DNA of 64,000 bases from Nitrosarchaeum sp. GTDB lineage: Archaea; Thermoproteota; Nitrososphaeria; Nitrososphaerales; Nitrosopumilaceae. The DNA lies in the NCBI RefSeq assembly GCF_035968265.1, contig NZ_JAVYIM010000006.1:1-64000 (forward strand), given 5' to 3'. A model generated the notes under the pieces. The model did not search any database. It was not told where the DNA came from and was given only the letters and a program-made list of their open reading frames with translations. Shown in pieces: positions 49,461 to 53,402 of the stretch. How positions within the stretch are numbered: the first letter of the stretch is position 1; each line of letters opens with the position of its first letter. A program made the translations under genes and the position numbers.

Positions 49461-49934
49461 ATGTTTGATAAATTCAAAAAAGATGAAGGTATGGAAGCTA
49501 CAGAAGAGAGAACTGTAGAACATACTAGTATGAAATCTAATGAAAGTTCATCTAATGAAACAGTAAGAGAGATCGGTATTGTAGAATTGATGGATAAGCG
49601 TGTCAAATTGGAAGAAGCTATTGATTATGTAGGTCTAATGATTAAAAATTTGAAGGATAAAAGAACTGTTTTAGAGAAAGATATTGAAGAAGAGTCAGTT
49701 GATATTAAAAATTTGAAGGAAAAATTACAAAAAGTAAGTCAATACATAGAAGAGGAAAATAGAGGAATTAAAGAATTAGCTCACAAAAGACAGCAAGTTG
49801 AAAACGAAGCAGATGAGGTAGGCTCAATTATCAATAATTTAAGAGATAGATTGGCAGGAATTGATAGAATAATTGATAATGAAGGTAGTAGAGTTAAGAA
49901 AATTAAAGAATCCAGAGAATCTATAGAAAGTTAA
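49461..49934 (+). CDS. Coiled-coil protein
   Basis: The protein (about 157 residues from ATG 49461; a TTG at 49443 is open in frame) is almost entirely charged alpha helix with heptad-like spacing (VELMDKRVKLEEAI; KDKRTVLEKDIEEESVDIKN; IINNLRDRLAGI). It lacks a signal peptide and is probably cytoplasmic. It ends inside the last codons of the convergent cdvB gene (4-bp overlap), so an association with Cdv function is possible by proximity only. Confidence 0.7.
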   Translation: MFDKFKKDEGMEATEERTVEHTSMKSNESSSNETVREIGIVELMDKRVKLEEAIDYVGLMIKNLKDKRTVLEKDIEEESVDIKNLKEKLQKVSQYIEEENRGIKELAHKRQQVENEADEVGSIINNLRDRLAGIDRIIDNEGSRVKKIKESRESIES

Positions 49935-50569
49935 TAGAATTTACTTTTTGAAGCCATAGTATTTGTAGGTGTTGAAGGCAATCTAGTTCCAACAGAACTT
50001 TCAGCTACTGCTGCAGCTTCTTGTAGAATTTTTTCAGATTCAGAATTAGTTGTTTCATCCATTCCAAATGTAGCATCGCTTGAAAAACTATCTGTCATAA
50101 ATCCTCCTAACATTTGTGCCATTTGATTAATTTCTTTATCGGCACTTGGCATGAATTTTACAAGAGAAGATTTTAGATTTTTCATCAGACCTATTGTAGG
50201 CATAATAGTAACTACTGTGTCACCAAGATCATGATAAGTTGTTAATCTTAATTCGATTTGTTCTAATGCTATTCTTGCATTGCTTAGAATTTTTGTAGTT
50301 TTTCTTACCTCAACTAATTCTTTTGATAAAACTCTACTAGTGTTCACATCGTGTGATTGAGTTGCTTCAACAATTCTTTTGAAAAGTTTACTATCTCTTT
50401 CATTTAATTTTACAAGCATTGAATCAAGTTTGGCAATCTGTACTTGTAATTTTTTAATTCCATTTTGAATTTTTGGTTTTAAAGCTCCTTTAGGATTAAT
50501 GGTGTCACTAATTTTATCTGTAATTCCAGGTTTTTGTTGCCTATTCCATTTATTTTGTAAGTTTGACAA
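49931..50569 (-). CDS. cdvB: CdvB-family (ESCRT-III/Snf7-like) protein, second paralogue
   Basis: The 212-residue protein has the same helical Snf7 core as the 2492-3139 product: KIQNGIKKLQVQIAKLDSML, ERDSKLFKRIVE, ELVEVRKTTKIL and IALEQIELRLTTYHDLGD, with a Ser/Thr-rich C-terminus. It starts at TTG. Thaumarchaea usually encode several CdvB paralogues that differ at the C-terminus. Both copies are conserved enough that each is likely functional. Confidence 0.9.
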   Translation of the reverse strand: MSNLQNKWNRQQKPGITDKISDTINPKGALKPKIQNGIKKLQVQIAKLDSMLVKLNERDSKLFKRIVEATQSHDVNTSRVLSKELVEVRKTTKILSNARIALEQIELRLTTYHDLGDTVVTIMPTIGLMKNLKSSLVKFMPSADKEINQMAQMLGGFMTDSFSSDATFGMDETTNSESEKILQEAAAVAESSVGTRLPSTPTNTMASKSKFY

Positions 50570-50880: not shown

Positions 50881-51792
<912 letters not shown>

Positions 51793-51827
51793 TTTATTTT
51801 TATAATGGAACTGATTATTGAAATTAA

Positions 51828-52256
51828 ATGAATAAAATAATAATCATAATTCCAATAATATTGATTATAATTGTTATAGGATTATCTGTTAATTCCTCTG
51901 AGAAGATTAGTAATAATACAGTTTTTCATGTAACTTTAGCGGATCCTAGTTTATACAAGAATGGAATTTACTCTAATACATTTACAATAAATGAAGGAAA
52001 TTATGTTTTAAAATTTATTCCAAATGGGGATAGTCCTCAATCTCTAAATATTTTATTAAAAGGAGAAAAGTATAACTTTTCGGAAAATTTCAAGCTAAAT
52101 GGAACATTACATCAAACAGGAATGTCTGAATATTATACATGGGATTACGATGGCCAAAAAGAAATTACAATTCCTGCGTCTCAAAAAATACTAATTGAAA
52201 TTAATCCAAATGGAAATGAATTAGGTTCGGTATCAGTCTATATTATTGAAAATTAA
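51828..52256 (+). CDS. Exported or membrane-anchored small protein
   Basis: The 142-residue protein has an Ile-rich N-terminal helix (residues 3-21) and a beta-rich domain (VFHVTLADPSLYKNGIYSN, LNILLKGEKYNFSENF, KEITIPASQKILIEINPNG). It is probably anchored by the N-terminus and faces outside. The stop codon sits exactly at the start of the structured RNA candidate at 52257. No family is recognised. Confidence 0.7.
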   Translation: MNKIIIIIPIILIIIVIGLSVNSSEKISNNTVFHVTLADPSLYKNGIYSNTFTINEGNYVLKFIPNGDSPQSLNILLKGEKYNFSENFKLNGTLHQTGMSEYYTWDYDGQKEITIPASQKILIEINPNGNELGSVSVYIIEN

Positions 52257-52388
52257 AGGCGTTTACCCCTTTACTGCAGAACCCTGAGAGATTTCCTCTC
52301 GTGGACAGGTCGTTAAAACGCCTGAATGCCTTTTCTGTTCTGCGGGGCAACGCGATTTTAGTCGATAGGAATTATATCCTTCGGCATT
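52257..52388 (+). ncRNA. Highly structured pseudoknotted RNA candidate (strand uncertain)
   Basis: AGGCGTTT (52257-52264) pairs with AAACGCCT (52316-52323). CCCC plus GCAGAAC (52266-52269, 52276-52282) pair with GTTCTGC-GGGG (52337-52347), crossing the first helix. CCT-GAGAG (52283-52290) folds back on CTCTC (52296-52300) and AGG (52307-52309). AATGCC (52325-52330) pairs with GGCATT (52383-52388). Two small hairpins (CGA/TCG, AGGA/TCCT) fill the 3' part. Crossing pairs of this number are unlikely by chance in AT-rich DNA. It begins at the stop of the 51828 gene and might be a 3' UTR element or a free RNA. It does not match tRNA, 5S, SRP or RNase P RNA patterns. Confidence 0.6.
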
Positions 52389-52658
52389 AATTCTTATAGT
52401 TACTTTAACTATTTAAGATTTAACACAAAAAAATTATAAGAATTTATAGATCTTTATAAGATTTTTATCTATTCTTAGAATTGATTTTTGAGATTTAGAT
52501 ACAAAAAAATTATTTTGAATATACAGATTTTATAAAAATTTACAAAATAAATTAACTCTTGAAATAAAATTTGGCTTTTACCAATGATTATAATTTTAAA
52601 ATTTATGAATAATTTTTTCTTATACTGCTATAAATTACGAAATTCATTGAATAAAATA
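52389..52658. other. AT-rich spacer upstream of the SDR gene
   Basis: This stretch is extremely AT-rich, with repeated ATTTATAAG/TTTATAAG-like motifs that may be TATA elements. A frame from 52584 is open, but its product before residue 26 looks unlike an SDR, so it is treated as non-coding leader. Confidence 0.45.
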
Positions 52659-53402
52659 TTGAAATTATCTGGAAAAGTTGCTATTATAACTGGTGGAAGT
52701 AGAGGCATTGGTTTTGCAACTGCAAAAATTTTTGTAGAAAATGGTGCAAAAGTAGTGATAACAGCAAAAGATTCAAAACGATTAGAAAAAGCTGCTAGTC
52801 AACTTGCAAATACAATAGGAATAACAGCAGATATTAGAAATAAAAATGATGTCAAAAAAGTAGTAGAACAAACGATTAAAAAATTTGGCAAGTTAGATAT
52901 TTTGATAAATAATGCGGGGGTATTTCCAAAAATAAAACAGTTGCATGAAATTGATGAATCGGAATGGAATGAAGTATTAGATGTGAATCTTACAGGACAA
53001 TTTAGATTTACAAAAGAAGCTATCCCTCACCTACGAAAAACAGCAGGGACAATAATTAATATTTCATCTGATGCGGGATTAAAAGCCTATCAAGGATTTA
53101 ATGCTGATGCGTATTCTGCATCAAAAGCTGGAATAATTATTCTTACAAAATGTTGGGCATTAGAGTATGCAAAAGACAAAATTCGGGTTAATTGTATTTG
53201 TCCTGGTGTTGTTGATACTGATATGACAAAACCATTTTTAAAAACTCAAAAAGATAGAGAATTTATGGATAATGAACACCCCATAGGTAGAATTGGTAAG
53301 CCGGAGGAAGTAGCTAAAGCGATTTTATATTTTGCGTCTGATGATGCAGCATGGACAACAGGTGCAATTCTTGCAGTTGACGGTGGAGAATCAATCAAAT
53401 AA
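52659..53402 (+). CDS. Short-chain dehydrogenase/reductase (FabG-like)
   Basis: The protein (about 247 residues from TTG 52659) has TGGSRGIGFATA, NNAGVFPK, the Y-x3-K motif (YSASKAG) and the C-terminal CPGVVDTDM and TTGAILAVDGGE segments of FabG-type reductases. The TTG start at 52659 (KLSGKVAIITGG) gives the usual length; the frame begins at 52584. NAD(P)H-dependent reduction of a 3-oxo substrate is the general function. The true substrate is unknown. Confidence 0.85.
   Translation: MKLSGKVAIITGGSRGIGFATAKIFVENGAKVVITAKDSKRLEKAASQLANTIGITADIRNKNDVKKVVEQTIKKFGKLDILINNAGVFPKIKQLHEIDESEWNEVLDVNLTGQFRFTKEAIPHLRKTAGTIINISSDAGLKAYQGFNADAYSASKAGIIILTKCWALEYAKDKIRVNCICPGVVDTDMTKPFLKTQKDREFMDNEHPIGRIGKPEEVAKAILYFASDDAAWTTGAILAVDGGESIK

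Follow-up and report, generated by a model that had tools for sequence, protein, structure and literature searches.

A previously undescribed structured small RNA, opening with a nine-codon reading frame, appears to be encoded in ammonia-oxidising archaea

The locus and its RNA gene

The window, by which we mean the whole 64,000-nucleotide stretch of Nitrosarchaeum DNA that was analysed, carries a compact block between a 142-aa open reading frame (ORF) and a short-chain dehydrogenase gene at 52584-53402 (Table 1). GC content is 0.395 in 52200-52399, against 0.15-0.34 in the overlapping or adjacent 200-base windows of 51700-52800, and 0.47 within the covariance model match, which agrees with a first-pass annotation that described the block as GC-richer than its surroundings. 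The complementary segments pointed out in that annotation are also present and exceed chance, with a fold z of -4.04 on the plus strand and -3.74 on the minus strand and none of 200 shuffles equalling the fold on either strand. The block had further been taken as part of a surface-protein-like gene; we find instead that the two are distinct genes facing each other. The 142-aa ORF has no Pfam match, and the same neighbour stands beside the RNA in distant genera.

Table 1. Coordinates of the RNA gene, its predicted parts and the convergent neighbour in the window
Feature	Position	Strand	Remarks
RNA gene (predicted)	52258..52388	minus	about 131 nt, followed by the T-rich tail; model match 52255-52388, E 4.6e-41; covariation; strand from G-U asymmetry
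BoxA promoter element TTAAATA	52410..52416	minus	conserved among 48 copies aligned with their flanks
Leaderless mini reading frame	52358..52387	minus	AUG CCG AAG GAU AUA AUU CCU AUC GAC UAA, nine codons
P1 hairpin	52363..52383	minus	52383-52378 with 52368-52363; entirely within the mini frame
P2 long closing helix	52259..52353	minus	52353-52350/52262-52259, 52348-52344/52269-52265, 52343-52337/52282-52276
P3 hairpin	52305..52325	minus	52325-52318 with 52313-52305; two-sided changes at 6/8 pairs (A2)
P4 hairpin GAGAGGAAAUCUCUC	52286..52300	minus	52300-52296 with 52290-52286; 100% of cells paired in A2, 97.4% in A4
T-rich stretch, probable terminator	52248..52257	minus	T-rich in aligned copies
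142-aa ORF, convergent neighbour	51828..52256	plus	outside the RNA; stop codon falls in the T-rich stretch

Two alignments of related copies underlie the comparative results. The first search located 51 loci by BLAST; dropping the near-duplicates L004, L006 and L022 left 48, and removing four that the aligner had misplaced (L047, L048, L049 and L031) left the 44 copies of alignment A2, aligned by sequence alone. The covariance model R1 was built from these 44 copies, and R2 is a second model. Alignment A4 holds 80 copies from 79 loci and is model-aligned, its pair counts leaning towards structure; a stricter cut-off excluded the match at L042 1555-1622 (E 0.0027). Dropped as weak were a fourth R2 match in the window's own genome (E 7.6) and R2 matches in four other genomes, G019, G029, G054 and G022 (E 0.013-0.72).

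The RNA lies on the minus strand because G-U pairs are asymmetric and because BoxA and the T-rich end fit that strand only. G-U pairs outnumber those pairs that the plus strand would make G-U by 105 to 12 in A2 and by 178 to 38 in A4. When the 48 copies were aligned with their flanks, BoxA stood beyond what the first-pass annotation, reading the plus strand, had presumed to be the 3′ side, and the T-rich stretch lay opposite; transcription from the plus strand is ruled out by the G-U asymmetry together with the promoter position. In the 15 nt beyond the model end the mean T fraction is 0.49, and archaeal terminators are described as U-rich (PMC7515710). Judged by sequence, BoxA and the T-rich end read on the minus strand are a normal archaeal promoter and terminator, and the distance to BoxA, which in the window copy stands 29 nt ahead of the mini-frame start, would place the transcription start at 52388. 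A scan of 52150-52700 for sigma-70 promoters and hairpin terminators gave 6 promoter-like sites against 3.7 in shuffles and 0 terminators, with a bacterial consensus that is uninformative for an archaeal host. The block is thus very likely a genuine structured-RNA gene of about 132 nt with its own BoxA promoter and T-rich end.

We considered whether such an RNA might instead be a cis-acting leader, either an attenuator or a riboswitch, of the gene downstream. A same-strand ORF does begin within 300 nt in 7 of 95 copies, among them genes for an Fe/Mn superoxide dismutase and a CorA-like transporter. The next ORF is convergent, however, in 81 of the 95, the window copy included, and the RNA end is T-rich; in the remaining copies the next ORF is more than 300 nt away (6) or absent (1). 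Since the nearest downstream ORF is convergent in so many copies, the RNA is its own gene and no leader, and we regard the cis-acting reading as highly improbable, the least likely of the rivals considered here.

Several genomic contexts deserve mention in their own right. In genus g19 (L105 141-270 and L111 1501-1629) a copy lies 33-35 nt upstream of the superoxide dismutase gene on the same strand, and these copies could be co-transcribed with it. In genus g16 (L098, L102, L108 and L122) a copy lies 94-102 nt upstream of a same-strand ORF of 339-340 aa; the one case tested, at L098, is the CorA-like transporter. Elsewhere in the window, a minus-strand ORF at 49931-50569 has a sub-threshold match to Snf7 (ESCRT-III-like; 23.2 bits against a cut-off of 27.3) and adjoins a TFIIB gene (50881-51792).

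Comparative fold and distribution

The comparative fold is, with high confidence from the alignments, nested: P1 comes first, followed by P2 enclosing P3 and P4. In A2, P1-P4 plus the pseudoknot proposed earlier had 92.0% of cells paired, with two-sided changes at 14 pairs against 5.6 in shuffles and a covariation score of 0.164 against 0.112 (reached in 0 of 500 shuffles); the score was at most 0.054 when the structure was slid along the alignment. RNAalifold recovered P1-P4 from A2 unaided, and folding the minus strand as a single sequence gave the same shape. In A4, which includes distant genera and was fitted by the model, 91.2% of cells were paired, two-sided changes occurred at 31 of 35 pairs, and covariation reached 0.355, compared with 0.161 in shuffles and no more than 0.085 when slid. 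Covariation among relatives, proposed in the first-pass annotation as a test that could refute the RNA, was thus run on both alignments, and the RNA passes in each.

Individual helices differ in how they pair. P1 had 87.5% of its cells paired in A2 and 75.5% in A4, where all 6 of its pairs showed two-sided changes. For P2 the figures were 96.9% and 99.7% in A2 and 95.6% and 95.9% in A4, and each of its four outer pairs was formed in 42-44 of the 44 rows of A2. P3 and the linker vary among copies. In the genome of the window, all three copies take a similar shape, though P4 and the 5′ part differ in the third. A third subtype (L133-L136, L138, L139 and L259) has AGAAUGCUUU or something similar in the P4 region in place of GAGAGGNAAUCUCUC and keeps the mini frame and P2. 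By eye, P4 also looks Shine-Dalgarno-like, GAGAGGUAAUC being compared with the complement of GGATCACCTCCT, a sequence found twice in the genome.

These results support one of the three crossing helices from which a double pseudoknot with HDV-like strand order had been proposed. Helix 2 (52266-52282/52337-52347) is real and covaries in the 44 relatives of A2. Helix 1 (52257-52264/52316-52323) has 252 of 349 cells paired with no compensation, one of its pairs being A-C in 18 of 44 rows; its halves belong instead to P2 and to the covarying P3. Helix 3 (52325-52330/52383-52388) has 212 of 264 cells paired, varies by wobble on one side only and contains a pair formed in just 4 of 44 rows, and its GGCAU/GGCAA half is missing from many divergent copies. 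With helices 1 and 3 unsupported, the double pseudoknot falls. An HDV-like ribozyme was rejected on the uncompensated helix 1, on the RNA's lying on the opposite strand and on the absence of a match to an Rfam ribozyme; the likeness had consisted solely in the order of strands read on the plus strand.

With model R1 the RNA was found in 223 of 250 genomes of the family, in 126 of the 131 good genomes and in 18 of 22 genera; a DNA search alone gave matches in 151 of the 250. In a class-level sample 159 of 300 genomes matched, and in an order-level sample searched with R2, 152 of 330. As far as searched, the RNA is confined to the archaeal family of Nitrosarchaeum and Nitrosopumilus: among the matches listed for the class- and order-level samples none lay outside it, and eight genomes of other families gave no match at E up to 1 under laxer filters. 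Named records with the core pattern are nearly all Nitrosopumilus, Nitrosarchaeum and other thaumarchaeal MAGs; two that carry it, L145 and L165, are labelled Nitrososphaeraceae. Two further records with the exact core pattern bear bacterial-MAG labels (L247 and L251; Hyphomicrobiales and Chitinophagaceae) and are probably mis-binned archaeal contigs. A search of viral contigs with one exact pattern returned 0 stretches.

The RNA is often present in two or three copies, and 36 selected genomes have two to four model matches apiece. Genome G087 carries it at C1:22397-22530, C1:690170-690300 and C1:488159-488280, each on the plus strand. Besides the window copy, the genome of the window has copies at G000:C3:455037-455167 and at G000:C2:385509-385630, the latter flanked by chorismate synthase and EPSP synthase genes, both on the opposite strand. 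One genome of genus g21 carries tandem copies about 190 nt apart (L101 1192-1312 and 1501-1620). In one Nitrosarchaeum assembly, two matches of equal score lie on different contigs (G026:C3:211724-211857 and G026:C6:16424-16557) and represent a duplication that is either recent in the genome or an artefact of assembly.

The mini reading frame

At the 5′ end of the RNA lies a feature absent from the first-pass annotation, a leaderless frame of nine codons. Divergent copies with flanks have a start codon where transcription is expected to begin, and a stop follows in the same frame. We modelled this in 98 copies by taking the BoxA whose distance ahead of the model start was closest to 28 nt and seeking ATG, GTG, TTG or CTG at 27-31 nt, frame length being unused in the choice. 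In all 98 the start codon falls 27-30 nt (mostly 29) past the first T of BoxA, and it is AUG in 91, GUG in 6 and UUG in 1. The stop follows after nine codons in 89, eight in 8 and ten in 1, so start-to-stop lengths are only 24, 27 or 30 nt; UAA is used in 57, UGA in 21 and UAG in 20, and 3-4 nt separate the stop from P2 in 91 of the 98. The copies are related, so that these counts are not independent events, and whether a start, stop or length had changed independently was assessed by eye.

Of 63 held-out rows, 56 passed a fixed frame rule, and these include the third copy from the window's genome. The rows were in neither model's alignment, many being close kin of rows used, and if more than one BoxA-like site was within range, one that passed was favoured. 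Three of the failures, L311-L313 (E 1.7e-4 to 0.025), were taken as false hits in coding-like sequence and still counted as failures. L267 keeps the frame with a changed BoxA, L274 and L282 have their AUG 31 nt past BoxA and eight codons, and in L299 ACU replaces AUG. Among control BoxA-like sites off the RNA, 10 of 605 in 118 named contigs passed (2 with exactly nine codons), as did 0 of 58 in the window.

Does this pattern reflect translation? The nucleotides of P1 and of the stop region are themselves under constraint, so the start and stop pattern could be partly structural, and taken to its end this would reduce the AUG at the 5′ end and the U-R-R ahead of P2 to structural or promoter-linked motifs that are never translated. 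Start codons, however, change only to GUG or UUG, with one loss, and the stops exchange among UAA, UAG and UGA. None of 68 distinct frames has UGG at the stop position despite 17 occurrences of G at each of two positions, an absence with a probability of 0.003 if the frames were independent, relatedness being uncorrected. The AUG-to-stop distances are those of a reading frame, and the spacing between AUG and BoxA is constant even where the sequence between them differs. We therefore consider a purely structural origin improbable.

If the frame is translated, its product could be what matters, the nine-residue peptide being the functional output and the remainder of the RNA a stabilising 3′ region. 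The kept start, stop and length would suit such a micropeptide gene, and some groups do have a peptide in common, for example MRKDVNPID. Across 60 distinct nine-codon peptides, however, similarity is 0.41 in frame but 0.83 and 1.25 when the same bases are read in the two other frames. Third codon positions are not those that vary most, and the larger and better conserved portion of the gene is the non-coding fold, all of which makes a micropeptide gene rather doubtful. The peptide being free while start, stop and length are kept, it would be the act of translation that matters, and translation is probably part of how the RNA functions.

How translation and fold might work together is suggested by their geometry. 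A ribosome would load at the RNA 5′ end on the leaderless start codon and, since P1 lies wholly inside the frame, would have to melt it while translating. The leading edge of a ribosome with a stop codon in its A site lies about 8-10 nt from that codon's first base. Here the edge would thus stand at the first P2 pair. Translation of the frame could then be completed with the folded domain left closed, the ribosome reaching the stop codon just as it meets the still-folded P2-P4. In computed folds, P2-P4 persists when nt 1-35 are held open, and outer P2 is lost when nt 1-43 are open. One initiating or terminating ribosome would in this way be positioned against the P2-P4 domain, with the RNA acting in trans.

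An alternative that shares the trans action is a small RNA whose P2-P4 domain base-pairs or binds protein, the frame merely letting a ribosome shield the 5′ end from decay. A stand-alone gene, several paralogues and the variable P3 and linker would suit it, but simple protection needs neither a fixed frame length nor a fixed distance to P2, and we hold it to be unlikely. Our preferred mechanism, which we regard as a fair possibility, is that the RNA regulates in trans and in association with ribosomes, serving as a sensor or brake with the ribosome docked on P2-P4. In its full form our preferred reading is more tentative: these genes may constitute a class of RNA translated for translation's sake, whose start-stop cassette parks or senses one ribosome and which serves marine and freshwater ammonia-oxidising archaea as a multi-paralogue docking regulator.

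A large share of marine ammonia oxidation is due to these archaea, and to our knowledge little is known of their regulatory RNA. If the full reading is true, an RNA that is near-universal and multi-copy, and that keeps its start-stop cassette while its peptide is free, would mean that ribosome traffic itself is the signal, and it would offer a direct handle on how translation is tuned in slow-growing ammonia-oxidising archaea. If the structural part alone holds, a lineage-wide RNA family without an Rfam entry is still gained.

Comparison with known RNA classes

Within the literature collection that was searched, no description of the RNA was found. A report on N. limnia refers to 'a conserved noncoding RNA with 93% identity to N. 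maritimus' that is left unspecified in the section considered here (PMC3043068), so the RNA may have been noticed before in part. Rfam 15 gave 0 matches in the window above the gathering threshold and one chance match under permissive settings, and at 16 divergent loci it found only a tRNA (L098 136-207) away from the RNA. The genome's single matches to RNase P RNA (RF00373) and SRP RNA (RF01857) sit elsewhere, at G000:C3:44929-45207 and G000:C2:1107-1418, which upholds the earlier judgement that this is a complex structured RNA and no known housekeeping RNA. Nor is it a tRNA, ARAGORN reporting 0 tRNA genes in the window.

One point of comparison is tmRNA, which has a tRNA-like domain and whose fold contains a frame roughly ten codons long that lacks a start codon. 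Both RNAs have a short frame of that order within the fold; the frame here, however, has a start codon, and ARAGORN found 0 tmRNA genes in the window. Leader-peptide attenuators control, in cis, the operon that follows them, and specific codons are needed for this. They too combine a very short ORF with a ribosome that meets folded RNA, whereas here the codons vary and the next gene is mostly convergent. Cis leaders of either kind were rejected on that convergent arrangement.

Dual-function small RNAs such as SgrS and RNAIII carry a short ORF and a structured regulatory part, and their peptide has a function of its own. The union of ORF and structured part on one RNA is common to them and to the RNA described here, but here the frame is leaderless, about nine codons long and unconserved in its peptide; a dual-function RNA with a conserved peptide is disfavoured by an in-frame peptide similarity below that out of frame. 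Guide RNAs of the H/ACA and C/D kinds carry a guide segment together with a k-turn and either ACA or C/D boxes. Rfam guide families gave no match in the window or at the 16 divergent loci, the boxes having been inspected by eye only.

Small RNAs of Haloferax volcanii have been reported to be occupied by ribosomes, most of them without evidence of a protein product (PMC12482152), which makes a ribosome-associated role plausible in archaea. They were found by Ribo-seq and belong to another phylum, whereas ribosome contact is here predicted from sequence, and the parts of that report considered here describe no kept leaderless nine-codon cassette (PMC12482152). Set against their own defining features, then, neither tmRNA, attenuator, riboswitch, dual-function small RNA, ribozyme nor housekeeping RNA fits the gene as its sequence presents it. 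Because no known kind that we considered has its defining features here, we rate the RNA, on this evidence, as new in kind.
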